A stretch of DNA of 64,000 bases from Ischnura elegans. Lineage: Eukaryota; Arthropoda; Insecta; Odonata; Coenagrionidae. Below the pieces are notes generated by a model. It worked only from the letters and a program-made list of their open reading frames with translations. It did no database searches and had not been told where the DNA came from. The stretch spans positions 136,896,198 to 136,960,197 of the forward strand of contig NC_060246.1 in NCBI RefSeq assembly GCF_921293095.1, written 5' to 3'. Positions 651 to 58,628 of this stretch are shown one piece after another. Position 1 is the first letter of the stretch; every line of letters begins with the position of its first letter. The position numbers were made by a program, and so were the translations under genes.

Positions 651-3140
651 AGAGTGTTTACCTCATTTCATCTCTACCTCATTGTGTTTTAATGAATCAG
701 TGTACTTCGCGTTGAATGCGAAGTATGGTGATTTGATCACGGGTCAATTTTTTGACCTATCTAAAGTATTGCCATGATTTCATTCCTCTTAACGTTTCCG
801 TGAGCGCGTGATAGCTTCAGGAATGTATGGATGATATTTTAATTTTACGTACGTTTTACGAAAGATGAAACACGACTGGAATTTCGTCAGTTGTCCTGAA
901 TAATCAAAATGGAAATGAGTGTTATGATAATTTTCAGTAGCAGCTCATAAATTTCTGGATCCAGGAGCTCTGTGATATTTTAGAGTGCTAATTTAAGAGT
1001 GAATATTTGCATCGGAAAGGTGCTAAATATTTATGCTCAATGGATAAAATGTATTCTATTCAAACTAATACTGCTCCATGAGGTATTTCTGCCAACAAAA
1101 ATAGTTTTAATGAAAGATTTGTCAATTAGTGTTATTTGATTCGAGAAATTTGGAGTAAAAACTTTTAACCTCAATAACTTAGAAACATTTTGAATTCGAC
1201 TGTAAGTTTTCAAATTGTGACCATTCCTACTGTGAAATCAATTTTAAAGCACAATTGAAACAAAACGTGTCAAAAATTTTTATAAAATTGTAACATTCGT
1301 GCAAAAACCAATTTTGCCATTTTTCTACAAATATAGAAAGGATTTTTATTAATTACATGAAATGGGAATAAAAATTTCTTAAAATATTCATTTACAGATT
1401 AATTGACGAACAAATAAGTCCATTAGCTTCTTTTATTTTCTATTTCTAAGATGCATCGTCATTCCTTGATGTAAGTATGATCAGGGTGTAGTCCTTTATG
1501 AGGCATTTCAACCAAAATCAGTCAGTGACATTATTCTACCCCAATGATCTTCGCCGTGTAAGTTTATTATCGTCATTTACGTGTCGATTTCCAAAATTTG
1601 AGTTTGATTTCGTTTATATACGCTAAAAATTTTCTTATGCAGCTCAAGAGGCCGACTTCTATTCAGAGTGATTGTCGACAAGTTCACTTTGTGGAAATTC
1701 ATCGATAATAATGATACAAATAGCTGTAGAAACTTTTCACACTTTTTATTAATTTGCTCACCCGTTTTCAAAGTTTTTACATCAGATATCTCTTGATAAT
1801 GATGTGAAAACATTGAAACCGGTTGAAAAAAATTTAAAAAGTCTGGGAAATTACTACAGCTGTTTGCATCATTACTAAGGTAAATTCTCATTAGAAGTTT
1901 ATGTGTATGTGGTATTATTGAGAACGTTTTGGCTTTTAAGTACCGAAGCTTAGGTAATGGAGCGCAGTGACTAAGGGGACAGACCACATTGATTCAAATA
2001 ATCTCAGATCCTGAGGACCTGTTCGCAGCCTTGGCTTTACCCACCTCACCATCGACCTTTTAGAGTGCATTTAAGTATCTTTGTCCACGAGTCTCGCCCT
2101 TCTGAACGCACTGAACCCTGTTTGAAACTTTTTAAGTCCTGAAATCATGTAAATGATGCCAAGTATTTTTCGGGTTTCGAAAATATCGAGGTCTCTCTTT
2201 ATAAATCCCATGGTAACCCAATGTTAAAAATTTATCTTGAAACTTATTCGCTTTACAAAAGAATGCTGCTGTTTGTGGAGTGAAAAATTCTATTTCATAG
2301 ACAAAAGATCAGAGTATCTTGAAACTATGGCCGGAAAATAATGCGAACAACACTCGAACATGTCAGTTACAAATCTCCGTTGTAAGTAACACTGAAGAGG
2401 TAGATATTAAACCAAGGACGTTTGAAGTATCTATAGTTAGCTAAACCACTTGCATATTTTCCTTATCAAACACTCCTCCAGTTAATCCGAAGGTTTTTCT
2501 TCATAGTTTGAGAAATTGATTGAATGATAAAATCTTGATGAATTGCGCTGTCAAAAAGTCATAGCGATAACAGGTTTTGAGCACCGTTTGACCTTTGCCA
2601 GTTGTAGTTCCGCAATGTTCATTCTTGATATTAAGTTCACGTGATAAAAACGCCTCTGTTTGAAATGGATGAATTATTACATTTATCCAAAAAAAATCAG
2701 TGCTACAAATTCTATTTTCCTCCAGAAATTAATTTTAAGGATGCTTAGCTTATTTGACCGTCAGTAAACATTTTAAAATGACACAATACTTTGCAATGCA
2801 TAAGTGTCAATTGCAAGTGACGGCTTTGAATCTCATAGCAACATTTTAATTAGTTAACCCCTCACTCAGATGTCATTCAGAGGATTCCTCCTTAATCGAG
2901 AGAGAAGCTATTAGACGCACTCATTTTTGGCGAACCTCGATTAGGAGACGGATGGCGCGAAAATGTTTATTTTGGCTCTTTTGAACGCAACATACCTGCC
3001 ATACCCAGATAAATACCCTGCCAGCTTCAATGTTCGTAGTTTTTTTTCGTAAGGATTGCAAAAATGCAATTTTTGAAAGTTGAATTCTGTAATGCATCCT
3101 TTTACGCAATTGCCGTCTTGGCGCTATTTAGGTACCTCCG
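651..3140. other. Unannotated AT-rich stretch
   Basis: No exon with convincing splice sites, RNA gene or terminal-repeat pair was seen here. The 136-residue minus-strand frame at 1577-1987 has no recognisable motif and low-complexity composition, so it is treated as chance. Confidence 0.5.
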
Positions 3141-3488: not shown

Positions 3489-4067
3489 TCATTCATAAAA
3501 TCCGAAGACACTATCAAGATGGATTGGACTTCGTCTACGTTGAAATGTCAAGGTGCAATTTTACACGAACTTTTTCCGGAAAATTGACCTTGCGGGAAGA
3601 CAAACAGGCATCCTTTTTAAATTATTATATAGATAGATGAACGCTGCAAAATTTTTAAATGGTCTGCTATTTACGACGGGCTGCAGAAAGGTACATGACG
3701 GAGATCATATTCGTTCTGTGAGAGCTACGACAAAAATATTTCGGGAAAAGCGCATGGCGGGTAGCGACTATAGATGATCTACTTTATACTCACTGTCAGA
3801 TACGATCATCACTCGAGTGTATCACACATACTTCCGTGGCTTAAAAATGAAAGAAATTTCATTCATGGTCTGGGTTTCCCCATAAGAGCAAATAAAAAAT
3901 ACAACGATTTCTGCTCAAACAAACAAAAATGAAAAAATACACCTGGCATATTTATGTTTGCAACAAAAAGCAAAAGCAAAAATAACCTCAGGTCAACAAT
4001 GAGAACAAACAGAATGGAACAAGAGGACGAGAAAAATCGGAAAAAAATGCAGATAACATGTGATAGC

Positions 4068-4181
4068 ACACCATAAAAATAGATATAACTTTCTGACGTA
4101 AATATAATACTCCATCAAATCATAATTACACCATACAAATATAATTGACACCATAAAAATAAATATTATTTGCTGACGTAA
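4068..4181 (+). repeat. Short direct duplication, two copies
   Basis: The segments 4068-4101 and 4148-4181 share acaccataaaaata, att or act, and the closing ctgacgtaa, separated by 46 bp that contains a third partial acaccata. This is a small local tandem duplication; no function is evident. Confidence 0.7.
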
Positions 4182-13499: not shown

Positions 13500-14610
13500 C
13501 TGATTCTATAATCCTTTTCAAATATCTTTGCGATTCAGTCGTGCAAGCTCGAAACTTTTCGAGCGGCTTCGCGGCAAGAGGTGGCACCTGCGACACTAGG
13601 GATGTGGGATGGGGAGAAAGAAAGGTGAGTGTTACCATGGTTTTTCAAAAGACTTTGCCAGTGAATCGAAACGAAAGACTATCTCAAAATCCCTCTTCCC
13701 ACTAGGCATCACAACTAACTTACGACGCGTAAACCACGAAGGCCTGAAAGCGACTGAATTTCCCGGAGTCTAGGCTCCACCTATCTCATTTTGACTGTTT
13801 TTCAGGAAGTCAGGAGCCATTCGCCCTCACCCCCCAAAAAATTTTGGGCCTGCCTCTTACAATAGGGTAGTTTCCTTCATCAAAGAAAACGAAATGCATT
13901 GATTGCGATTCGTTACCCACCATTAGTGTATTCATAATATACAAATTATTTGGCATTAGAAATCCCAGTTTAGACGAATGGCAACGGTCAATTTTAACCT
14001 CATTTGAAAAAGGCCAGATTGGCGCCCATGCGTTTTCCACTCCACGTGACGTCACAGGGACCTAGTTTCTACACGAGTAGATAGGAGTTTTACATCGTCT
14101 GAGATTACCAATGCATGCATGAGGCACAGAGATCAGGGAAACATCTTTTAAAAATCATGCATTAAAATACCTAAGTTCGGAAAATTTCCTTCGTTTGATA
14201 GGGTAATAATAATCCTTATTTAAGCCAGGCGCTACCGGTTAGTAGGGTACTCTGCTACCTGGTAGCAACCTGCATCGCAGCGGTACACAATATCCTCGCC
14301 CCAAGGTCACCTCACTCGCCGACAGCTGGATCCAGAAATACGTCACACGGACTTTTTCCCATCATTCCTACTTAGCCATTTTCGCGCGCTTGAAAATTTT
14401 CACTTTTCGTTTAATCGCGAAAAATAGATATCGTCATTCGAAAATCTAAGAGCGTGAAATTCGCACTCCAGGAGTAATAATCTTTCTATTTAGGCAATAA
14501 AAAATTATAGGAAACCACCCTATTAGTCGCAAAGATATTTGAAATGAACTCTAGGATTCCAGGAACCCAAGCACCAACAGTGTCGTGCGAGAGGCAAACT
14601 AAACGTCTGT
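13500..14610 (+). repeat. Old interspersed repeat, copy 2 (split by MITE)
   Basis: Second copy of the repeat at 1-645. Homology covers about 13500-13860, then resumes at 14525 with agtcgcaaagatatttgaaa immediately after the MITE, and continues to about 14600. Frames of up to 123 residues at 13334-13705 overlap it but are not conserved between the two copies and are rejected as genes. Confidence 0.7.
13861..14524. mobile_element. 664-bp MITE, copy 1
   Basis: Terminal inverted repeats are AATAGGGTAGTTTCC and, at the right end, GGAAACCACCCTATT (14 of 15 paired). A second nearly full-length copy is at 31445-32106. The interior has no transposase frame but is GC-richer than its surroundings and includes ccacgtgacgtcacaggg and the tgcatgcatgaggcacagag block. 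The site before insertion is preserved at about 380-400 (cctctcagtcgcaaagat). The left flank ctctta and right flank ttagtcg suggest a TTA or TA target duplication, but this is not certain. Confidence 0.85.
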
Positions 14611-15965: not shown

Positions 15966-16847
15966 GCCTACCTGGGGCCGTATTCTGTATTTCGTCTATG
16001 CCGCACCGGTCGGTTTCCCTTTCAAGCCCACCGACTGGGCATCAAACCGTACCGACAACGGATTCCGCACCGACGACGACACTTTCAGCGATTCTGTAAG
16101 GTCGTCGGTTTCAAACCAGTCGGTACGGTTCCCTCTCCTTCCCAAACAGGGAAAATCCGAATATATCCGAAGTTTCACGTGTATCCACCAATGAAAGAAG
16201 GGTAAAAACAAGTGAAGACTCATTGGCACAGCTTGTTGTCGTCACTCTCAATCTTTTTTTTTGCGGAAATTACGACTTACTGCTAGATTAAGATTAACAT
16301 ATTGGATAAGTTGTTAACAATGCTTATATATTGTGTGGTAGTAATGCTGAATCGAAGGAAACAATATTACAACATCACAATAAAGTTTGTATGTGATAGA
16401 GATTGTTGTTGCTGGAATGAATTATTGAAACTATCCTTGAGATCGTAGTTTCTTTTTTTAAATATTGGTTCCGTATAATGCTATTTATTCATGATTTGGT
16501 AATATAGTTGTCATTAAGTAAGTTCCGTCTAAATGTTATCAACGGAAGGTTATGCCATTGGCACCGTAGCAGACGAAGATAGCATACCATGGAACGTGAA
16601 CGTAGGTTTCAAATGCAAATGTCATATTAGAGGAACAAGTAAGAAAATGGTAAAAAAAATATGGAGCTGGGTGTAATTAAAAGAAGTGTAATGACGAGGA
16701 AGTAAAGAAATTGTGATTGGGTGAAATACATATGTATAAGTAGAGCGCATTCCAAGTGAGAGAAAATGATAATATTGCGGCAAACCTCATTGGCCAGACT
16801 GCAATTGTTAGGAAGGTTGATAGCGCCTGCTAGGTGGCGTCGCGTCG

Positions 16848-19336
16848 CACAGTGGTCCGGATTCGGAAAAAGGTGGACAAAAATCATTTTTTCGACTTTC
16901 TTCAAACTCGCTTAGACTATACAAGTTATGCAGTAATATGTCTGGGGTATCACCTTTCATGCTTACTTTTTTATAAAAAAAATTGCTAGCTTAGATATAT
17001 TGCGTCAAAGTAGCACTATTTCTAAGGAAACTTGATTTTTCCGTTTTTTCGAAAATTACGCATTTTAGATTTATTTTTGGCTTTACGCCGCCAATTATAT
17101 TCGTAAACTAACTTTGCACTATAGTAATATAGACATTTTACTGTTATAAAATATATATTTCAACCTTTTAGAGATGTTGATGATTGCTGTAGAATTATTT
17201 GAAGGGGAGTAATTTTTTTTCGGAAAAAATCGCATAAATGTTGAGTTATAAAAAAAGTGACGTCGATTTGCGCGGATTCGGCTATTTGTGACAGTAAAAT
17301 ACAGTATCATAAAGATATTAGTAAAGAAATCAGCTGCAAATCAGTGCGAGTTTGCGAATGACAACGATTTATATGCCTAGCCGTAGTAGACGTGAACGTC
17401 GACACGCTAGCATCAGCGCAGTGTAGGCACATGGTAAATTGTGTCTCCCAATGTTTCATGGGCCAGAATCACAAAAATAAGAATTTTAGCATTTTAAAAC
17501 ATATTTTATACTTTGTAATCATCCAAATTTTATCTGTATGTGGACCAATAGAATAATTTCGGAACAATTTGAATTAGGTTAAGCGCAGTTGGGACGCTGG
17601 GAGAGGAGATAAAATATTTTTTCCGATCGCTTCTCAGAACGACTTCAAGCGCGATTTGGTAATAGATTTAAGTAAATACGACAGGCTACATGCACTGCTA
17701 CCGGGAAAACCCACAACCGTCTCCCTTTCTTTCAATCCGAAGGAGACCCGTTACCCGAACACGTGTCGGACCTCAGGGAAGTGGGAAGGGGTCTTTAGTC
17801 GGGACATTTTGCCATCTTTTGTCATCCTGCTATTTTGCCACTTGGCGCACCACCCAACTTGAGGTTATTGCTTTTCTAGGGGCGGTCTGACCTGTAAGTG
17901 AAGCTGCACGTGTTAATAGATGAGGTCTTTACCCTCCACCCGCTTCCTTTTGGACGGGTTTTATTGCAGGTCCGCCGCTAGTATGCATTTTCGCACAAAA
18001 TCCAAACATTTCACATTTTCTTTACGGGGTCCAACCTTACCCCAACCAGTTATCCTGGGGAATACCCACATTTCCATGGGTAAAGATTACTCCTCTTTTT
18101 AACCCCATCCAAATTTCGGTCGAAACATTTTGGTACCCTTCAGTTTCAACTTTTCTGTCGATGTGAACACACCCATCACTAATTGCGAAGTCCTATTTTG
18201 GCTACAGTTTTTGTGATTTACAGTGATCTCGAAAAGAAGTTATAGTGTTGTGATAACTAAAAAATTGTGATTAAGTTATTTATTAGTTCCTGACAACCAC
18301 ATAAATAAGGATTATTGAGCAGGTATACTATGTTTAATTTATTTCCGTTTCTTGTTTTCGTTTTTTTTAATTGGTCTGAGACGAGGCAGCGCTCTAATTT
18401 TCCATATTTTCCCTTCTATTTGATATTTAACCTTTTTAGAAAGAAGACTGTTGTGTAGCTTTTTGTAAACCTGTGTTTTATATTGTTGACTGTCAACAAT
18501 GTCATGGGCATTTACGCGGCGAAATCTGCACGAAAAAATGCTGGAGAAAAAAGAGAAAACCATGGATGCTCGAAAAAGGAATTTAAATGCATATCTGGAG
18601 AGTTGTTTCAGATTACACGGAGATGAGGAGGCAAACCTCGAGCTTAATAATTTTTTAAACATGAATTTTTTTTTATTCCTACGAGAGAAGATGGCGAGCT
18701 AGTTCGCAATCAAAATCTTAAAGATCCTTAAAGATCTTCCGGGGCCGGGGCCTTAAAGATCTTCCGCAGGAGGTTCGTGATCTCTTGGTCCTGCAAGAAT
18801 CTCAAAATTCTTCGAGCGAATGCGAAGAGGAGGAGGGGTGGGATTCAGAAGAATCTGATGCTGAATAATACATAATTGTAAATTTCTGAGGAATTATCCA
18901 TGCTTTTATGAGAATAAAAGAGTTACATAAATACTATTTTGATACTTATTTAATAATTACTTTTAGTCCATACAGAAGAATCTCACGAAATCTGGAAATC
19001 GCACCTTTTTAACGTTAGTCAATGCACCCAACAACCCTACTTTTAGCCGTTTTTTTGTTTATTGAGTACTTTGAAAGATCATTAACTCATTCTATACAAC
19101 TAATTATCATGTATTTTCATATGTTATCATGATTACCGTTTATCTATGCAGTCAGCGTTACAATTAGCCCGTTAATAAGTTCAAGTTCCACGATATCGCA
19201 TGAAATAAAAGTTTTTTCGTAAAAATAACTGCAGAAATAAAAATAGCTCGCCAAAAAACATATAGAGAGCAATTTTTAAAGACATCCAACCAAAATCTGA
19301 TTTTTGTCCAACTTTTTCGCGATCCGGACCACTGTG
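16848..19336. mobile_element. Transib-like DNA transposon (RSS-like ends)
   Basis: The element begins CACAGTGGTCCGGATTCGG and ends with the reverse complement of CACAGTGGTCCGGATCGCG; inverted ends are about 39 bp with few mismatches. Both ends read heptamer CACAGTG, a 22-bp spacer, then ACAAAAATC (16848-16854 and 16877-16885 on the left). It is flanked by a perfect 5-bp duplication CGTCG (16843-16847 and 19337-19341). Established knowledge: Transib elements have CACWRTG ends and 5-bp CGNCG-type duplications and are the relatives of RAG1, whose recombination signal is CACAGTG-spacer-ACAAAAACC. No full-length transposase frame is visible in the 2.5 kb, so the copy is non-autonomous or decayed; short frames inside are described separately. 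Confidence 0.8.
18499..18869 (+). pseudogene. Broken small frame inside the Transib-like element
   Basis: Starting at ATG 18499 the frame encodes a lysine- and glutamate-rich stretch (RRNLHEKMLEKKEKTMDARK) and then a region ending in ...LNNFLNMN before stop 18702. Another island, about 18760-18869, reads LPQEVRDLLVLQESQNSSSE followed by CEEEEGWDSEESDAE and a stop. The two may be one former coding region joined by a frameshift or a small insertion around 18650-18760. An acidic Ser/Glu/Asp C-terminus also ends the frame inside the second Transib-like element. No catalytic motif of a transposase is recognisable, and function is unknown. Confidence 0.35.
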
Positions 19337-19511
19337 CGTCGTGCCTTAAAAAAAGAAAACTTACCGTCCCTAATGGAATAAATGCGAAATTATTCGTTAT
19401 TTTCTTTGTAAATTGTCTATTATGTTAATATTTTTATGATAGCCAAGCTATTTTTTAGAAATTTTTGTTGTAAAGGTAATGCTGGGAAACATTAGATGTA
19501 CTTTTAATCCC

Positions 19512-30916: not shown

Positions 30917-31444
30917 AATCCCTCAATCAATGTAATCACTAAGGGCTTCCTTCCAAAATTCACTTTTCTTGGTCGACAGTTCATTCCTGGGCCCCGAGAG
31001 TATAGTTCCACCTCTGAAACCCTGTTTGCCCGCATAGCTCTTTGGCTTGAGGGCATGTATGCAATATATGTACAGCATATGTAAAATTAGTCAAGGTCCT
31101 TCAATTGGAAATTAAAATAAGTGTTCATCAATCCTTGTATGAATTTAGTAACTAGTCACGCCAAAATGTGGCGAATTTTCGCAATACTCGATCATTGTTT
31201 GCGTGCCTATTACCGCATCCACACGTTACCTTTCGACAGAGCCTTCGCCAGCCACCGCCGAAGCGGACCTATTTTCCTCCGCGAGAAGGGATAGTTGGCT
31301 TGCGAGGGATGGTAATGGACCGAACTCGTACCTAGTCTGTTAAAGCCGAGAGCCCCGCCTACGAAAATAAACCCTCACCTTGGAATCTGTGTTTGTCCGT
31401 AAATTCCCGCATTTTTCAAAAGTGTATCTTTCATAAACTCCTCG

Positions 31445-32106
31445 AATAGGGTAGTTTCCTTCATCAAAGAAAACGAAATGCATTGATTGCGATTCCTTAC
31501 CCACCATTAGCGTATTCATAATACACAAATTATTTGGTTTTAGAAATCCCAGTTTAGACGAATGGCCACGGTCAATTTTAACCTCATTTGAAAAAGGCCA
31601 GATTGGCGCCCATGCGATTCCACTCCACGTGACGTCACAGGGACCTAGTTTCTATACGAGTAGATAGGAGTTTTACATGGTCTGAGATTACCAATGCATG
31701 CATGAGGCACAGAGCTCAGGGAAACATAATAATCACGCATTAAAAATACCTAAGTTCGGAAAGTTTCCATCGTTTGATAGGGGAACAATAATCCTTATTT
31801 AAGCCAAGCACTACCTGCTAGCAGGGTATTCAGCTACCTGCTAGCAGCCTGCGTCGTATTAGCGCTCAAGCCTCGCCCCAAGGTCGCCTCACACGCCGAC
31901 AGCTGGAACCAGAAATACGTCACACGGACTTTTCCCATCATTCCTACCAAGCCGTCGCGTTTTCGCGCGCTTGAAAATTTTCACTTTTCATTTAATCGCG
32001 AAAAATAGATATCGTCATTCGAAAATCTAGGAGCGTGAATGGCGCACTCCAGGAGTAATAATCTTTTGATTTAGGCAATAAAAAAATAATAGGAAACCAC
32101 CCTATT
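31445..32106. mobile_element. 662-bp MITE, copy 2
   Basis: Nearly full-length second copy of the element at 13861-14524, same orientation, with identical terminal 15-mers (AATAGGGTAGTTTCC and GGAAACCACCCTATT) and high identity throughout. Differences include the variable ctacctgctagc region and a few indels. Flanks differ from copy 1, confirming independent insertion. Confidence 0.9.
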
Positions 32107-41600: not shown

Positions 41601-44600
41601 TTGTGACTTGAAGGACCCTCATGCAATATGCTCTCCTATTAGCTCGCGTAATTTTATTGATGATTGACGTTTCGAAGTATAGGTCAAGTAATAATATGCA
41701 AAATTATTTTACCAACATTTCGATATACTCATATCTTTTTCAGGACTTTGATAGATGTTTACGGCAATAAATTGATAGATGAAGGCATGAAATGCTATTA
41801 AGTTTTTTACAATAATAAAAAAATATTTAAAAAATTGGAATAGATTTGTCTCTAAATAATTTATTTTTATATTTTTTTATCGATATTGTAAAAAGAAACA
41901 TTGTGATAATCTTACATGCTGCCATGTTTCAATTTAATTTAACCATTACCATACATACCCTGAAAAAGTAATAAGAAATGTATTGAAACGTTAGAAAACA
42001 ATTTTTCTTATCATTCTCATGCCTATACATATACTCCGAGAAGTAAGACATCATTAAATAATTGAGTTCAAGAAAAAGAATTCGTTATTTTATTGTTAGC
42101 TCGGAGTGTTAAGGTCAAGGTGCAGGGATCCTCCGCCATTTTCTTAGTATGAATAGAATCTAAATTTTAATTTTAAATACTTCCAGGGTATTTGTGCACA
42201 AAAAACAAATAGATGCACTGTTTAACGTTAACCATATAATTTCTGTTACTTGATCACATGATTTTGGGGTGTAGGTCAAGCGATAATTTTCGATCTTTAA
42301 TCATATTTATCGTCGATTGCGTCATTTGTATTCTTCCATTCATCTTGGTTACATCATGGAAATAATTATTAATACTATTTAAAACCAAAATTTCTGTGGT
42401 GGGTTCCCGCTCAGTAACCACTTTGCTATCAACATCTTTTTTGTTATTTCTTGGGCTGCAGATTGCCCATCTTTCCAGCCTTAGATAAACAGCTAAATAT
42501 TATTTAATCCTTTTTGTGATCATCGAGAAAATTTTCGGGCTCAGTCTTTAGTGTCTCACCTTAAGAGTTGATCACCGTTTTTTTTTATTTATATATCAGG
42601 TAAATTCATTTTCGTCATTTTATCAGTCAAATGTAGTCTATTTTTTCCACATCACAACATATATTCGTACACCCCAGTACACGGAAAAAAGTGGGCTTGA
42701 GAAAATCAAAGATCTGGAATAAATATTTATCGAGAGAATGAGCATCGTAGCTTTCGATTACGTCTTCGTATTAATTATCAGTTCTATTTATCTCTTATCA
42801 ATGCTGATTATTGACATGAGTGTTATCTAACGGACTCTTTCTCTTGTTGCCATGGCTGATGTGCTGAAGCTAAGAGATGACGTGAATTGAGTGCGGTTCC
42901 ATTCATAATATTCAATTTGACAGATAGCTCGAAGCCAAGAATTTAGGGGACTTGGAGTGTCGCTCATCAAAATTTCTTGAAACAGGATAATTTGTTTATT
43001 TCGAATCGGTAATGGTATTGAAATTCACACCGAGATAATTTCTTGTATTGGATTACGAAATGCGGACAGTATATATTCACATTTGGTCCAGGGAAAGACC
43101 ACTGTGTATACATGGTTTTGCATATTTCTGGAATTCGCATTAAAATTTAACTACGGGTACTATTGCACAATACATACACATATGTGAATAGACATTTTTT
43201 TGTGGGGACAATCATGAAGTCCTATTAATCTTCTTATAACATGGATCTTCCCTGCTTGCCAGCGTTCACCTCAATTATTGTTGACTAGTCAACGAGTTTC
43301 GCCTAAAATATTGGTATTTTAACCTTCGTGTTATGATAAAAAACCAGTAATTGTGGTCAAAAAAATGTACATGATGACATCCATCTAAACGAGAATTCCA
43401 TTTGTCCCTTTTCCCCCGCTTTGCGCTCATTGAAGTTCCTCAAAGTCATTCGGTCAATAAATTATTACGTAAGCACTCCCTGAGGAAGGTTGGCTTATGT
43501 TTGCTGTCAACTGGAAGGGGGGTGTCACATTATCCATTCTGTAAGATAAGAAGATACTGCACTTAAGTGAAGAAAGAAGTTGTGGTTGATCAGAACAAAC
43601 GGCTGGTTTCACATTCCAAGTAAATTAATTTCTTCATCATACAGAACGCCCAGGTAGTACATAGCGTTACGCATACTGATGTTAATTTAATCTTGACATT
43701 TAATTTACGAAGAAGAAATGGTAAAGTAGATAATAGTATTCTTTTTATTTAAACATTGTTAAAGAAAAAATTTAAAATAGTTAAAATATATATTTTGAAA
43801 TACTAAAGAAGAATCAAATCGAGATTAAAAATCGCAAACTCTTACGAAAGTGAATGGGTGGAAGGGAAAATATATTAGGGAAATCCTATTATTACTTAAG
43901 TTGGGGAGGGAGTGGTCAATCCTGGCCCAAAATACACTTTAAGAAACATTTGTACGCTCCCTAGCCCTAATTATTTTCTGTTATATTTATGAAAATCATG
44001 TTAGAAATAAGAAACGTTTTAGGTGGGAAGTTATATGGGACTTTAAGTACGAAAGTCCCGAAAAATATTTCTCAAAGTGGGTAATTTCTAACCACGAGGA
44101 AGTTTCGACCGTTGATAAAAATTATGGATAACCAGGCTCAAGTGATATCATAACTTACTTTACGGTCATTGCCCAGAGAAATAATTATCTCTGTTCGACA
44201 GAACCGACTCAGCAAACCAGTTTTTTTGTAGGGTTGCGTATCACCGCGCAAAAATTAATTGAGTGGGAATATTTCAATATCCTATTAAGATAATAATGTT
44301 CGTATTCTAAATATATATACTTTGAAGATTAGAATGGTCTGAATGAGAAGGGTTTGCTATTTCCTTCATTCTGTGGTTTTCAATTGTCGAAATAAACCAA
44401 ACTTACCAGACTTTGTTCTCATCAGCAGTTATGGCTATTTTTATTATAATCTCAACTACGTTTAAAAAATTGCGTCTTACGCGCTATAAAATTATATTCT
44501 CTGCTCCGTAATATGTGATTCCCAGTGCAAATTATTTCTTAAAGATATGCTTTCAAATGAATTTAGATATGTACTTATCGGGAACTAAATCTACCATTCT

Positions 44601-47600
44601 TTTCTTGGTCCTAATCTTAGATAGTTATAAATATCAGAGATAAGTATATGGAGTAAATTCTCGATTTGCAAAAAAATAAATTCTTCGCGTAACCGATCTT
44701 CGATCATAGCCTTGAATTCTTATCTCAGCACCCTCTTTAACTTTGTGCCTCCTTTCCTCAGAAATATTTTCTATACTGCCCTCATTTCTCCTTCTCTCTA
44801 AGCTCCCAATCGTGAATAACTCAAAAAAAAAATTAATTTATGAAAAATAATTCGTACAACATTGAAGGTATAACTAGTGTCTCACCTTAAGAATGGATCA
44901 TCGTTTTGTTTCTTATTCATATATCAGGTAAATTCTTTTTCGTCATTTTATCAGTCAAATGTAGTCTATTTTTTCCACAGCACAAGATGTATTCGTACAC
45001 CGCAGTAAACGGGAAAAAGTGGGCTTGAGAAAATTAAAGACCTGGAATAAATATTTATCGAGAGAATGAGCATCGTAGCATTCGATTACGTCTTTGTATT
45101 AATCATCGGTACTATTTATCTCTTATCAGTGCTGATTATTGACATGAGTGTTATCTAACGGACTCTTTCTATTGTTGCAATGGTTGCTGTACTGAAGTTA
45201 AGAGATTACGTGAATTGAGTGCGGTTCCATTTGTAATCTTTAATCTTACAGATAACTCAGATATTTGATAGATAGAATAGTAGAGTTTGGGTTACCCACC
45301 GGGTGTGGTTTTGGGTAATTGGTTCCAACGTTTCAATGGCTGAGTCTGCCATCGACTTCAGGGGTGACTTCCAGAGCCTAATTCTTTACGGTATTTTATT
45401 TATTTATTTCATTGGTTTCCCTGATTGTTGTTTACGTATCGCCGTAGAGTTATATTTCACAGAAAGGTCTTTTTCTGTCATTCAGTATATGCTCTATTAA
45501 TAATAAATATAATATGCACCTACAGTGATATGAAGTGCTGGTGTTGCGCCGTTACGGGCCAGTACGGCGTACCCCTATAATCAAAACTTGTTGTAAGCGT
45601 AGCGGTTAAACTACCTTTTTCAATCTGTAAAAAATAACCCTACCGTAAATTGCCCAATGGATTTCAGAAATAAAAATCGGAAATGGTAATTTTACTTGTT
45701 CAGTCGAGTTATCTCGTGGCACAACTTGGAACTGATATTTGTGTTAGAACTGTGTGTAACTTGTAGAACTGTGTAACTTGGAACTGGTATGGAGTTAGAG
45801 TTTGACATTTCAATCGCGGCCGGATATATAATTCATGTTCAGCTGTTGGCAATTTTTTATGAGTACCGCCTAATTTTTTTTCCAACTACAGCACTAGCAA
45901 CATGTGTGGTATCATTTAAACGTGAATCACCAGCTTCTGACTATTTACCTATTAAGTTGATTGACTTCAAAGTTTCGATTTTTCTATGTCAAATACTCAC
46001 TCATGGTATATCGACTCCAAACATTTTTTTATTCTAAACTTAAAAAAAAAGGTTTAAAAACCCCATAAATCCAAAATTAAACCAAAGAAGCGTAAAATAA
46101 GCAGGTAAAAATATTACAAATAAAATCTGAACGAAAGTGCGAAATTTTCGCACGGGTTACTTAGTACAGCGATTAATTATGATACTCCACGTGCTGCCTA
46201 TTTGGAAGCCTTTGTCTCTATTTATGTTATTCTCTTCTAGGTTAATTTCAATCGCCTCTTTTACAATCCCATCCTGTGTAAACCACACCCAGCGAGAAAA
46301 CTGAGAATTGTCCCTTCAAACTATACGCCCGGAAATATTAAAATTCTACTTCGTACAATAATGTTCGCCCTTAATTTGATCCTCTATCGATTATAGCGTG
46401 AAATAAGTGGCAAACTTCATCCTTGGTGTATTTTCCTCTATCGATTTCCGAACATATTTGGTGAAAAAAATATTTCCACGCCTGAGGAGTATCAACTTAA
46501 CTTTTATCAATTCTAGTTTTATGAAAAAAATAATGTTTAATATGCATTTCATCCTCATAATTTTTATTTGTGTATCTCTTAAATAATTTTGAATTTAGAG
46601 AATAAAATTGAGTGAGAACTATCTCTTAAAACTTTCTTGATGTTTGCAGTGTATACAGCAGCTGTACTTCGTCATGTGCTGTCGTGAACATCTTTTGTCG
46701 AAGGAGCAAAAACCAACGGAGAAAATGAGAAAAGCTCGTCAAGTCCTGCTGAGCTCCATCCTGTTCCCCACGACATTCGTAAGTTGTTGAATTGTTGAGT
46801 TGTTGAAAGACCTTAGCCGTTGAATCCATAGCAAATATGCCACTCTCCTGGTCAGAAACGTGGAAATATACTCTTGTCGTTGCAATACCATTCCACACGT
46901 GTCTTGCAATGAAAGCTATGTTTAAATCAACCCCTCGATTATGTGTACGGTTTCTGACTTCGCTTTGTGGAACCTTGATATAAGGAAATAAAATGCACTT
47001 CGTGAGTACTACGACCCATAAAAGTTTCCCAAAAAAAGAGGTGGCCATGCTTTTGGACAAAATTTGAGTTTCGTCATCCTCATTGTTGTACGTTATTCTA
47101 CAGCTACGCCGTGGCTACGCACATGAAGCAGTGAGTCATGGCAACAATCTTGGATAACTTTCAATCAGAAAAACGAATCACGGAGAAGATTTCGTTTCAA
47201 ATTACCCGTACTTGATCGCCTTTTAGGAAGAAATTTCAGCAATGGAAATTTAATTTTTCTTCTGCTTTTCCTTAATTTCAAGAGAAAATTATCTCCTAAA
47301 GGGAAAATAATCTCCTAAAGAGAAAATAATATCCTAAAAATATCTCAGAATCATTTTGATCTTCTTGCAAATCATTTCGATCATCAAATCCTTGGCTATG
47401 AATAGCAAACAACATCATATAAATTCATGTTTCGTTAAAAGCCAGTGTGGTGCATTTCAATTTGTTTGGAAACTTTTTTTGAGTCACAGCACGCTCCACA
47501 CTGAATACTTATAGACATCGTTCATGGTTTCATAACCACTTTATCACAATCAAGGTATATAACAGTATCGAAAGCATAGTCGGTGGTAAATATTCAGAGA

Positions 47601-55477: not shown

Positions 55478-56914
55478 CCCTTTACCCCTCCGATGGAAGA
55501 GCAAATCCAAAAGGGGTATTTGGAAATGCTTTCCTTGTAATGAGGACAGTTGGCTTAAAATTAGCACTTAGCAAATGCCTCTGTGCTACGCCTTGGCATT
55601 TATTTTAACTGAAATATCATAATTGAGTGCGACAATAGTTTTCTGTTTCACCTTTCAAATTAGCCACAGCTCACACAATGTTTAACAACTGGCTATAAAA
55701 TTGGGAACAAGTGCGCAAAAATGACCATGAAATGTTGTGGTTGACACTGCTCGGAATTATTCCAATTGTCTGACGAGTAGGGGTCCCAGGCGAGGACAGT
55801 GTAAACTTGAGAGGGGCTTAAGCACAGCCACCTATGGCTCAAGTCACTATTCGCACGTTCCTTTTTTTCCTTTCCATTCCAGACGCCTATCGATGACGTA
55901 ACAATCAAGCTTAGCCAATCATTGGTTTCCGATCGGTTCGTCTGTATTCATTGAAATATGGCGAATCAAAATTATGCATTGAAGTGAATTCAAATTTTTC
56001 ATCGTCCTCTCTTTTAAATAGCTTAAGTTAATTACATTCGTCGGCGGTGTCCCGCCTTGAAATTTCAAAGGATATTAATAGGACAGGAGCGGAAGAGAAA
56101 GGATGGAGAATCCCTACGCCACACAGTGGGGCCAAATGCTTAAAAGGTGGTCATAATTATTAAATATCATGCAATGTGTTTGAAATTTGGAATATAACAG
56201 ATTTCGAGGTCACTGATTCCGAATATGATATTGAAATATAAAGAAAATTTATATTTTGCCAAAAAATTGGAATTTTTGCTAAAATAAGACAGTAATTGTT
56301 CCTTATGACCAGTAAAAAGGGGGGGAATATTTTTAATTATATTATATTACGAATATGAAACTGATTTTGAAAATTATATGAAATGCATTTCAAAGCTTTA
56401 AGGCAATCGATTAATAATTTTATTAATTAAAAAAAATAAATATCATCATTTTATGGTTATTTTTAATTTTCAAACATTAAACGAATTCTAAACGAATTAA
56501 TTTCCGATACTATTATATGTATCTTAATGTACACGTTATAAGCATGTATACATACTTATGGCTTAAAAATATATCCTGGAACACAATAAGGTAACAAAGA
56601 AATTATAAACATTATTATATAACAGTCAGTCTGCGTAGAATATGAACAGGCCCGCGACCACTCACTTAAAAAAATGCAAACACTAAATATTATCCGTCTC
56701 TAATTCGTCCCATGAATAATTATTTAAGCACAAAACTGCATTATTGAATAAACCCACTTATCATTTTGAATATTAAATGAAAACTAATAAGTCTTTATAA
56801 GAATATATAAAACGTTAACAAACACATTTACATCACACATTATTATATAGTAGGTTTTCTACGTTGAATATGAAAAGAGCTGCGCGCACAGGCTTATAAA
56901 CGTAAACACAAATT

Positions 56915-57268
56915 TCAATCAGACTTCGTTCCACCCAAAGAATCGTCTACCGATTCCGATGAAGATCCTGATTCTATCAGGTAAGATTCATACACAATAT
57001 TCATGGCTTCGGAACATAAAACTGTCGATGACTTGGACCGCATCACAATCTGACTTACAATAATCGAGTCGGAATGTAACATCAATCTCACGACCAAGTC
57101 CACTACAGTTTTTTCCTTGAGTACTTTCGGGTAAAATATTCCCTGAATTTCCTCAACAATTTGTTGTACGCTTCCTGCGCTTCCTCTGACATTTTTTCGA
57201 TTGGCAACAATGAATTTTGTATGGCATTCCTTTCGTGCAACAGTATTTAGGGTAAACATTGTTGGCAT
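56915..57268 (-). CDS. Uncharacterised frame inside the second Transib-like element
   Basis: A 117-residue open frame in the element. Middle part reads SVQQIVEEIQGIFYPKVLKE then TVVDLVVRLMLHSDSIIV, hydrophobic and possibly helical; the C-terminus is acidic and serine-rich (IESGSSSESVDDSLGG). I do not recognise a family. The acidic tail recalls the broken frame in the first Transib-like element. It could be the C-terminal exon of a decayed element protein. A separate 41-residue island upstream on the same strand (57502-57627) has a Myb/SANT-like look. Confidence 0.35.
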   Translation of the reverse strand: MPTMFTLNTVARKECHTKFIVANRKNVRGSAGSVQQIVEEIQGIFYPKVLKEKTVVDLVVRLMLHSDSIIVSQIVMRSKSSTVLCSEAMNIVYESYLIESGSSSESVDDSLGGTKSD

Positions 57269-57501
57269 GCAAAACCAGTGATTTTATTCAACAATAGCCG
57301 TGCTGTTTAGATAGGATACACTTCGCAGATCTCTATATTTATTCTATAGCCAGATGACAGCTTGTAAAACAGTATTAAATCCCTGAAGAAGCTCCAAATG
57401 GAGGCCTGTTATATTGGCGGAAATTTCAGAGTTCTCGAGCTGTGTTGTCGTCATTACTACAACCATACACCTACTTTGGCCTGTTTAAACTAAGCTCCTT
57501 T

Positions 57502-57627
57502 TTAAGTCCTTCTCCTTCTTAGGCTCCTCCACCAATTTTTTAGCGTTTGTATTGCAGATCTGCCAGGTTTTAACTTACATTCTGAAAGCCACTTGCAAGC
57601 AGCATTCGAAATTTCGAATCCATGCAT
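57502..57627 (-). pseudogene. Short Myb/SANT- or MADF-like remnant
   Basis: The minus-strand frame reads MHGFEISNAACKWLSECKLK then GRSAIQTLKNWWRSLRRRRT and stop. The closing QTLKNWWRSLRRR resembles the last helix of Myb/SANT-like DNA-binding domains often found beside arthropod transposases. It is only 41 residues, so identification is weak. Confidence 0.2.
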
Positions 57628-58628
57628 GCAACGTGGTTAAACTACATTAGGGATATCATTCTTTACTGGACGAGATATTATAGCATCAACTTTGTATATA
57701 CTTTGTCTTGAGTCTTTGTTGCGTCAATTTATTGCAAAAGAACTCATTTTGTTTCGCTTATTATAAAGTAAGTGCTCCCTCTTGCATGCAGCGTGTCAAC
57801 GAGCTGCGCGCTTTGGCGTCCATACGGTTGGAGGTTACTTACGTATTTCTTCATTAATTCACGAAGGGGCGGGTTGGGGCGGTTAATTTTTTTTTTTGAT
57901 AGCCGAGAGTTGTGGCTACAATAATATAACTATATAAGAGCACTGCTATATAACTTAATGATGTTCGTATTTTTATTTTTTAATAAAAGTTGTGCAATTT
58001 ATTGGTTAATATTTATGTTAATAATAATTTTAATTTTGCTTCAATGTTATGGTAAAGCAAAATTTTTTTATCTATGCACATTGCTTTGTTGATTCTTTTT
58101 TTTTAATTTTAAATTTAGCCAATTGGGTTGCTGAGGAGGAGCCTAGAAGATGAGGGTATTTCGAAGCGAGAGGGAGGATGTGTATCCCAGCAGCGCACCT
58201 GTCACTTTGAAAGTGATTTTTACGAAGAGGTGCACACTTACCTGCTTCTCAAACTTATTTCTCAGCAGCTCAAATAAGTTTCTTCCCAACCATGTAAAAA
58301 GAAATCATAACCCCGAACTTTTATTTTTCTAATTATGGCCACCTTTTATAGATTTGGCCCCACTGTGCGCCGTCATAAAGGCATCGCGAGCTACCAATAG
58401 CGGTACTGAATTAGCTGTTCCAAGAGTAATGGAACATCATCTTATGAAAAGAATTAAATTGATTATTAATTCTTCATAAATTTGACCTGATAATGAAGCT
58501 ATATGACCGAAATTCCAATTTCCAATCCGATTCAAAATAGAAAGCAATCCTGTTCCTTATGATTATGATTCTCTTCTTATGCATAGAACGTGTCCCGGGA
58601 TAGGAAAGGAAAAAGGAACGTGTGAATA

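Follow-up and report, generated by a model that had tools for sequence, protein, structure and literature searches.

The Transib-type element at 16848–19336 of the 64,000-nucleotide window (the whole stretch of Ischnura elegans DNA analysed here) very probably belongs to a young Transib family, as a copy that carries an internal deletion and is not autonomous, a reading to which we give a probability of about 0.94. Transibs are cut-and-paste DDE transposons and relatives of the RAG1 core. The first-pass annotation had recognized the locus as Transib-like from its ends; this assignment now rests on the homology of the transposase encoded by longer family members and on the 5-bp target site duplications (TSDs) of all 35 copies whose right end is genuine. 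The family is new in the sense that we know of no description of it, not in the sense of a repeat-database comparison, and its kind is known.

Structure of the element and its ends

The element is 2,489 bp long and, by direct reading of the sequence, is bounded by perfect CGTCG duplications (Table 1). Each end, read inward, consists of the heptamer CACAGTG, 22 bp and ACAAAAATC (16848–16885 and 19336–19299). The comparison originally made with the V(D)J recombination signal sequence (RSS) is accurate in its particulars: the heptamer is the canonical RAG heptamer, ACAAAAATC differs from the RSS nonamer ACAAAAACC at one base (8/9), the spacer is one short of 23 bp at both ends and the flanking 5-bp duplication is perfect. 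The two ends are the same at positions 1–15, unlike at positions 16–18 and match again at positions 19–39, position 26 excepted. In a scan for CAC...GTG pairs with terminal inverted repeats (TIRs) and 5-bp TSDs, two such pairs are found in the window and none in 20 versions of it with shuffled 2-mers, which speaks against a chance arrangement.

Only the head and the tail of the coding region are retained in the window copy. The head is assigned from its position to the transposase gene, as its probable start. The tail remnant gives no Transib match by itself, and a longer version of it, present in copy L051, matches the transposase of HzTransib (PDB 6PQN). The family's transposase tail finishes in a strongly acidic stretch, SSSECEEEEGWDSEESDAE; for vertebrate RAG1, a C-terminal tail with acidic residues has been described (PMC7204232).

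Table 1. Features of the two Transib elements in the window
Feature	Position	Strand	Basis
Left TSD, CGTCG	16843..16847	.	same letters as 19337–19341
Right TSD, CGTCG	19337..19341	.	sequence
Non-autonomous Transib, 2,489 bp, internal-deletion class	16848..19336	+	TIR/TSD scan, genome copies
Left TIR, 38 bp: CACAGTG, 22 bp, ACAAAAATC	16848..16885	+	exact 38-mer in 28/35 copies
Right TIR, 38 bp, inward layout as left TIR	19299..19336	-	exact majority 38-mer in 32/35 copies
Inner block AAAAGGTGGACAAAA	16868..16882	+	end comparison
Left nonamer-like ACAAAAATC, 8/9 against ACAAAAACC	16877..16885	+	sequence
Right nonamer-like ACAAAAATC	19299..19307	-	sequence
N-terminal reading-frame remnant (MSWAFTRRNLHEK...), common to short and long copies	18499..18699	+	
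Internal-deletion junction, repeated filler CTTAAAGATC / CCTTAAAGATCTTCCG	18716..18744	+	21/21 short copies
Transposase C-terminal tail remnant (LKDLPQEVRDLLVLQESQ...acidic end); first bases are junction filler	18722..18865	+	
Second, degenerate Transib of another family (CACAGTGGGGCC... ends)	56122..58367	-	TIR/TSD scan
Transposase C-terminal-domain fragment (SEEAQEAYNK) of the second element	57106..57246	-	PDB 6PQN, E 2.9e-6

The second Transib in the window was absent from the first-pass annotation. Its flanks (56117–58372 with flanks included) read CGCCA and CGCCG, and at its left end only 4/9 positions agree with the RSS nonamer. Two other repeats are present. Direct repeats of ~330 bp (42549–42877 and 44875–45205), 2.33 kb apart and 92% alike over 300 bp, are possibly the ends of another element, and a dispersed repeat of ~650 bp occurs at 13854–14507 and 31438–32088, 17.6 kb apart and 88–97% alike in pieces.

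Family copies and target sites

We searched the genome (1.72 Gb, 110 contigs) using the element's leading 100 bp as probe and scored the best 40 of 569 candidates, the window copy included; ten of the 40, among them the window copy, are identical over the 100 bp. These 40 copies (39 fetched plus the window) were examined for their other end. A candidate right end is found in 36, and in the remaining four there is none within the fetched stretch. The TSD is a perfect 5 bp in 35 of the 36, the exception (L049) being a spurious end, and no TSD of 4 or 6 bp matches in any copy with a candidate right end. A different duplication length, which had been named at the outset as evidence against a Transib, therefore occurs in none of the 35 whose right end is genuine. 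CACAGTG stands at both ends of all 35, where ends were located by this sequence with one or two mismatches allowed, and the spacers are 22/22 in the window copy and in the family copies.

The target is GC-rich, the TSD being exactly CGNCG in 28 of the 35 copies, and its wider context is palindromic: A at -6 (21 copies), G at -4 (22) and R at -1 (33) on the upstream side, and Y at +1 (34), C at +4 (25) and T at +6 (19) on the downstream side. CGNCG is a known consensus for Transib targets. The preference seen in this family agrees with the CGCCG target with which the RAG strand-transfer structure was described (PMC11844651). The Drosophila elements hopper and transib2 likewise produce 5-bp TSDs (532/533 and 7/7 sites) at a palindromic target, but theirs is reported as CCANTGG (PMC3276498), so that not all Transibs share CGNCG. 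The earlier description of CGTCG as the Transib target type consequently holds for the Transibs of this genome and not for every Transib.

Two pairs of observations bear on individual sites. L048 (contig C9) and L056 (contig C1) occupy the same CGACG site in two similar copies of a GC-rich repeat, which suggests repeated use of one preferred target; owing to this shared repeat setting, the two do not count as fully independent targets. L037 and L067 directly adjoin another Transib (CACAGTGGTCCCAAAT...), with a single CGNCG shared between the neighbours, as if one element had used the other's target duplication as its insertion site.

One founder for the short copies

Twenty-one of the 40 copies, the window copy included, fall in a class of 2.48–2.51 kb. 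Divergence from the majority sequence of the class is 0.3–1.4% and from one another 1.2% on average, so the expansion is young. All 21 have the same internal-deletion junction with CTTAAAGATC.../CCTTAAAGATCTTCCG filler and are therefore descendants of one founder; the filler varies slightly in length, with one CTTAAAGATC unit in some copies and two in others. The longest copies examined, L043 (4,600 bp) and L051 (4,550 bp), hold ~2.1 kb more than the short ones. Since both are damaged, with L051 joining the DDBD part straight to the C-terminal part, the original loss was probably greater than 2.1 kb. Further length classes of 1.9, 2.7 and 3.0–3.5 kb exist in the family.

Transposase of the longer copies

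The longer copies encode pieces of a RAG1-core-like transposase that match HzTransib (6PQN). In L043, positions 2115–2660 match on the DDBD side (E = 1.9e-6), positions 2701–3078 match the RNase H region and carry the KWGFDG and MIDGK motifs (E = 5.3e-19), and positions 3718–4047 give the best match of all family pieces (E = 1.7e-21); in L051, positions 3763–4179 match with E = 9.7e-20. The catalytic residues of HzTransib are D126, D225 and E436 (PMC6941560), which correspond to 6PQN chain residues 109, 208 and 419 by a single offset of 17. Both aspartates are kept in L043 and the glutamate in L051, that is, in two different damaged copies.

A further feature of the enzyme lies upstream of the DDBD, where KGRPSKQF is found in L043 and L049. 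A GRP-bearing equivalent of the NBD has been reported in both Transib subgroups (PMC9435367). When the N-terminal/DDBD piece was searched against the genome and the best 150 of 2,102 candidates were scored, 119 of the 150 alignments (counted by eye from the alignment table) begin at or before the GRP motif. In a sequence comparison with the solved RAG1 NBD, the GRP region yields no hit at E ≤ 10.

The search for an autonomous relative, which the first-pass annotation had proposed, succeeds in yielding these long copies with transposase pieces; an intact autonomous copy of the same family was not found among the examined copies or the scored rows. Matches of at least 94% to the N-terminal/DDBD piece come from L043, L049 and L051 only, among the 150 scored of 2,102, and in all three the reading frame is interrupted by frame changes, some of them possibly introns. 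In other families, open frames of up to 340 aa surround the matched piece. Pfam assigns the pieces of the long copies to no curated family, the best hit being DUF1280 (E = 0.0028, 17.8 bits, cut-off 25), and no kelch or PHD domain, as a RAG2-like gene would have, appears in Pfam scans of five long-copy pieces.

A related transposase fragment with a 178-aa open frame is present in 16 copies of equal score at 89% identity. In Mb, it lies at 2.7 on contig C1; at 0.7, 145.1, 146.9 and 147.5 of 148.0 on C2; at 1.3 and 137.9 of 139.0 on C3; at 0.8 on C4; at 124.8 of 126.0 on C6; at 1.0 on C7; at 0.4 on C8; at 116.0, 118.9 and 121.0 of 123.6 on C19; and at 9.7 and 10.9 on C15. The two C15 copies aside, all 14 copies with an assessable position are less than 8 Mb from a contig end, as if the fragment were carried by subtelomeric duplications or had a preference for them.

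RSS-like features of Transib ends in this genome

The genome contains 5,778 sites of CGNCG followed by CACAGTGG (anchor CGNCGCACAGTGG), compared with 115 when the pattern is reversed as a control, and a narrower pattern that leaves out this family occurs at 265 sites against none. Two sets of ends were read. The first comprises 20 diverse ends chosen by eye from the narrower pattern, which itself selects for AAAANG at 21–26. The second comprises 20 ends (16 distinct) of ten elements identified by the anchor and a matching partner end, taken from ~22 pairs with complementary TSDs that were counted by eye among the first sites listed, all within the initial 16 Mb of contig C1.

A CAAAA core, the part of the inner block that is most often common to the other ends read, is present in 16 of the 20 second-set ends, at 22 bp from the heptamer in 14 and at 23 bp in two; shuffled ends have it at 22–23 bp in 0.35 of 20 on average and in at most three. 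It is absent at 21–23 bp in L104, L105, L108 and L109, and at 19–25 bp in nine of the 20 first-set ends. Across the ends read, the spacing between heptamer and CAAAA ranges over 20–23 bp, and L100 and L101 have exact 23/23 spacers with ACAAAAGTC. In this small sample of ends, uncorrected for its size and for relatedness, information amounts to 1.1–1.7 bits at positions 31–35, 0.1–0.3 bit at positions 36–38 (nonamer positions 7–9) and 0.5–1.5 bits at the 'spacer' positions 9–29. By comparison with positions 36–38, the 'spacer' is therefore not free sequence.

Agreement with the RSS nonamer at a spacer of 22 or 23 bp ranges from 4/9 to 8/9 among the ends read. This family reaches 8/9 at both ends, the single end L107 reaches it too, and the second element in the window is among those at 4/9. 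The mean best match at spacers of 21–24 bp is 5.77 against 4.31 for shuffled ends and is reached in 0 of 2000 shuffles, in a test of 26 ends of which 20 had been selected for AAAA. With the letters of this family's end shuffled, 8/9 at spacer 22 arises in a fraction of 5e-5 of 20,000. The feature to which the first-pass annotation drew attention is real, and the family that shows it lies at the upper end of the range. The second refuting outcome named there, a nonamer that is not conserved beside flanking bases that are, occurs in part: the CAAAA core at 22–23 bp is common, nonamer positions 7–9 are unconserved, and conservation in the 'spacer' is about equal to that in the nonamer.

Two narrower descriptions of the ends were discarded. 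That only AAAAG.TGG is conserved, and not the nonamer core, was drawn from three families and AAAA-preselected ends, and it fails on L093, L100 and L101, which have TTTT where most other ends carry AAAA and still keep CAAAA. A 12-bp A-rich site within the TIR carries no weight as evidence, since 20 of the 26 ends were selected for AAAA there.

How much of the RSS is present as a signal can be judged from the same data. The A-rich composition of the inner TIR, the 4/9 match of the second window element and the thought that this family may owe its notice to a top-of-range match would all fit a compositional accident, yet the rarity of 8/9 at spacer 22 among same-letter shuffles makes this highly improbable as an account of the nonamer resemblance, and for the CAAAA core, which shuffling almost never places at 21–23 bp in 16 of 20 ends, chance is ruled out. 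For the last three nonamer bases, chance resemblance to the RSS is accepted. At the other extreme, the whole of heptamer, 22–23 bp and nonamer could be a conserved functional signal with a free spacer, in a family especially near RAG. The excess of CAAAA over shuffled ends, the nonamer scores of the 26 largely AAAA-selected ends and the 23/23 layout of L100 and L101 all favour such a signal, but it is nevertheless unlikely: information is lower at positions 36–38 than across the 'spacer', nearly half of the first-set ends are without CAAAA, the spacing varies between 20 and 23 bp with 22/22 here, and the nearest solved relative is HzTransib, whereas subgroup I, which is closer to RAG1L, has asymmetric ends (PMC9435367).

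The window copy by itself might also be assigned to another DNA-transposon superfamily with a CAC start and 5-bp TSDs by coincidence, as it encodes no recognizable catalytic domain: nine pieces from the two window elements give nothing convincing in Pfam. The matches of L043 and L051 to 6PQN, which include DDBD, RNase H and C-terminal parts of the enzyme, refute this, and we accord it almost no weight. The deleted Transib described at the outset is the reading we carry forward.

Comparison with known systems

The resemblance of Transib ends to RSSs is already in print (PMC8355894, PMC6941560, PMC4411706), and the RSS-like ends seen here follow from this known trait of the group. To say that they mimic a V(D)J signal is correct as to the resemblance, which is an expected one, and requires the qualification that the arrangement is a symmetric 22/22 and not 12/23. 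A matching description is of a Transib group with symmetric spacers of 20–22 bp, 12/23-type asymmetry being confined to a few elements (PMC8355894). Heptamer, spacer and an A-rich nonamer-like block at both ends make our family an exact fit, different in family-specific sequence only, although spacers of 23 bp also occur among other ends in this genome.

HzTransib of Helicoverpa zea (PDB 6PQN, 6PQR, 6PQU, 6PQX, 6PQY and 6PR5) has a transposase homologous to that of our family in its DDBD, its RNase H region and its C-terminal region, with the three catalytic residues at equivalent positions. It is 3,518 bp long and also makes a 5-bp TSD (PMC1852546), reported as GCTCG in contrast to the CGNCG found here. 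Its TIRs are symmetric with an RSS-like heptamer, as in our family, but are described as having little or no similarity to the nonamer (PMC8289069), for which our family scores 8/9. The solved chain starts at the DDBD match (chain residue 3), whereas in this family a GRP-bearing region precedes it.

Compared with the 23-RSS, the family has an identical heptamer and, at an almost equal distance, an A-rich nonamer core; it differs in its spacing of 22 rather than 23 bp, its 8/9 nonamer, its constrained 'spacer', its transposon setting and its want of a 12-bp partner. A 12/23 spacer pair with ACAAAAACC is absent from the element, which has 22/22 with ACAAAAATC. RAGL and ProtoRAG elements share TIRs that start with CAC, 5-bp TSDs and a RAG1-like enzyme, but the protostome RAGL TIR consensus CACTWMCAAACKTYKBB (PMC7204232) has AAA at positions 8–10 where this family has GTC. 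Subgroup I comprises the RAG-nearest Transibs and has an asymmetric TIR pair (PMC9435367), which is absent here, the window and family copies being 22/22. By implication of PMC9435367, HzTransib belongs to subgroup II. Judged on sequence, the symmetric ends and HzTransib-like enzyme point away from subgroup I.

A model for the origin and mobility of the element

We envisage an ancestral element that bore a Transib transposase gene and, in one of its copies, the loss of the gene's central part, which measures ~2.1 kb against the longest copies examined, themselves damaged. The junction may have gained its repeated filler at that time, as interrupted gap repair predicts. Thanks to its preserved ends, the deletion founder would then have spread as a passenger. 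Transib transposase from another copy, acting in trans, is predicted to bind both symmetric ends, each made up of CACAGTG and the inner A-rich block with its CAAAA core 22 bp in, and the GRP-bearing N-terminal region may contact this block. By analogy with HzTransib, for which nick-hairpin cleavage has been demonstrated (PMC6941560), the cut at CACAGTG may follow the same route. The excised element would insert at R-CGNCG-Y and leave 5-bp duplications.

Implications for the evolution of RSSs

Because Transib ends are known to resemble RSSs, the single locus at 16848–19336 matters little. The first-pass annotation had put it forward as a good natural comparison for RAG–Transib evolution; the locus is not special in this respect, and the large set of anchored ends serves better. 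It is the setting that could matter: one genome with 5,778 CGNCG-CACAGTGG sites, in which several families, judged from small samples of ends, share the heptamer and often have CAAAA 22–23 bp away, some at exactly 23 bp, and in which related transposase pieces carry the GRP-bearing N-terminal region. Natural variants of this kind could show which RSS bases pre-date V(D)J recombination. Apparently the heptamer and the CAAAA core are older than V(D)J, and the 3′ end of the nonamer and the 12/23 asymmetry are not. A bolder proposal, which we consider decidedly unlikely, is that CAAAA at 22–23 bp is an ancient, constrained Transib signal read by the GRP region, with the 23-RSS ancestral and the 12-RSS later. 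If it were true, the radiation of Transib ends, with 5,778 anchored sites and with 20-, 22- and 23-bp versions of a single layout in the small number read, would provide a natural library from which enzyme–signal co-evolution could be measured.
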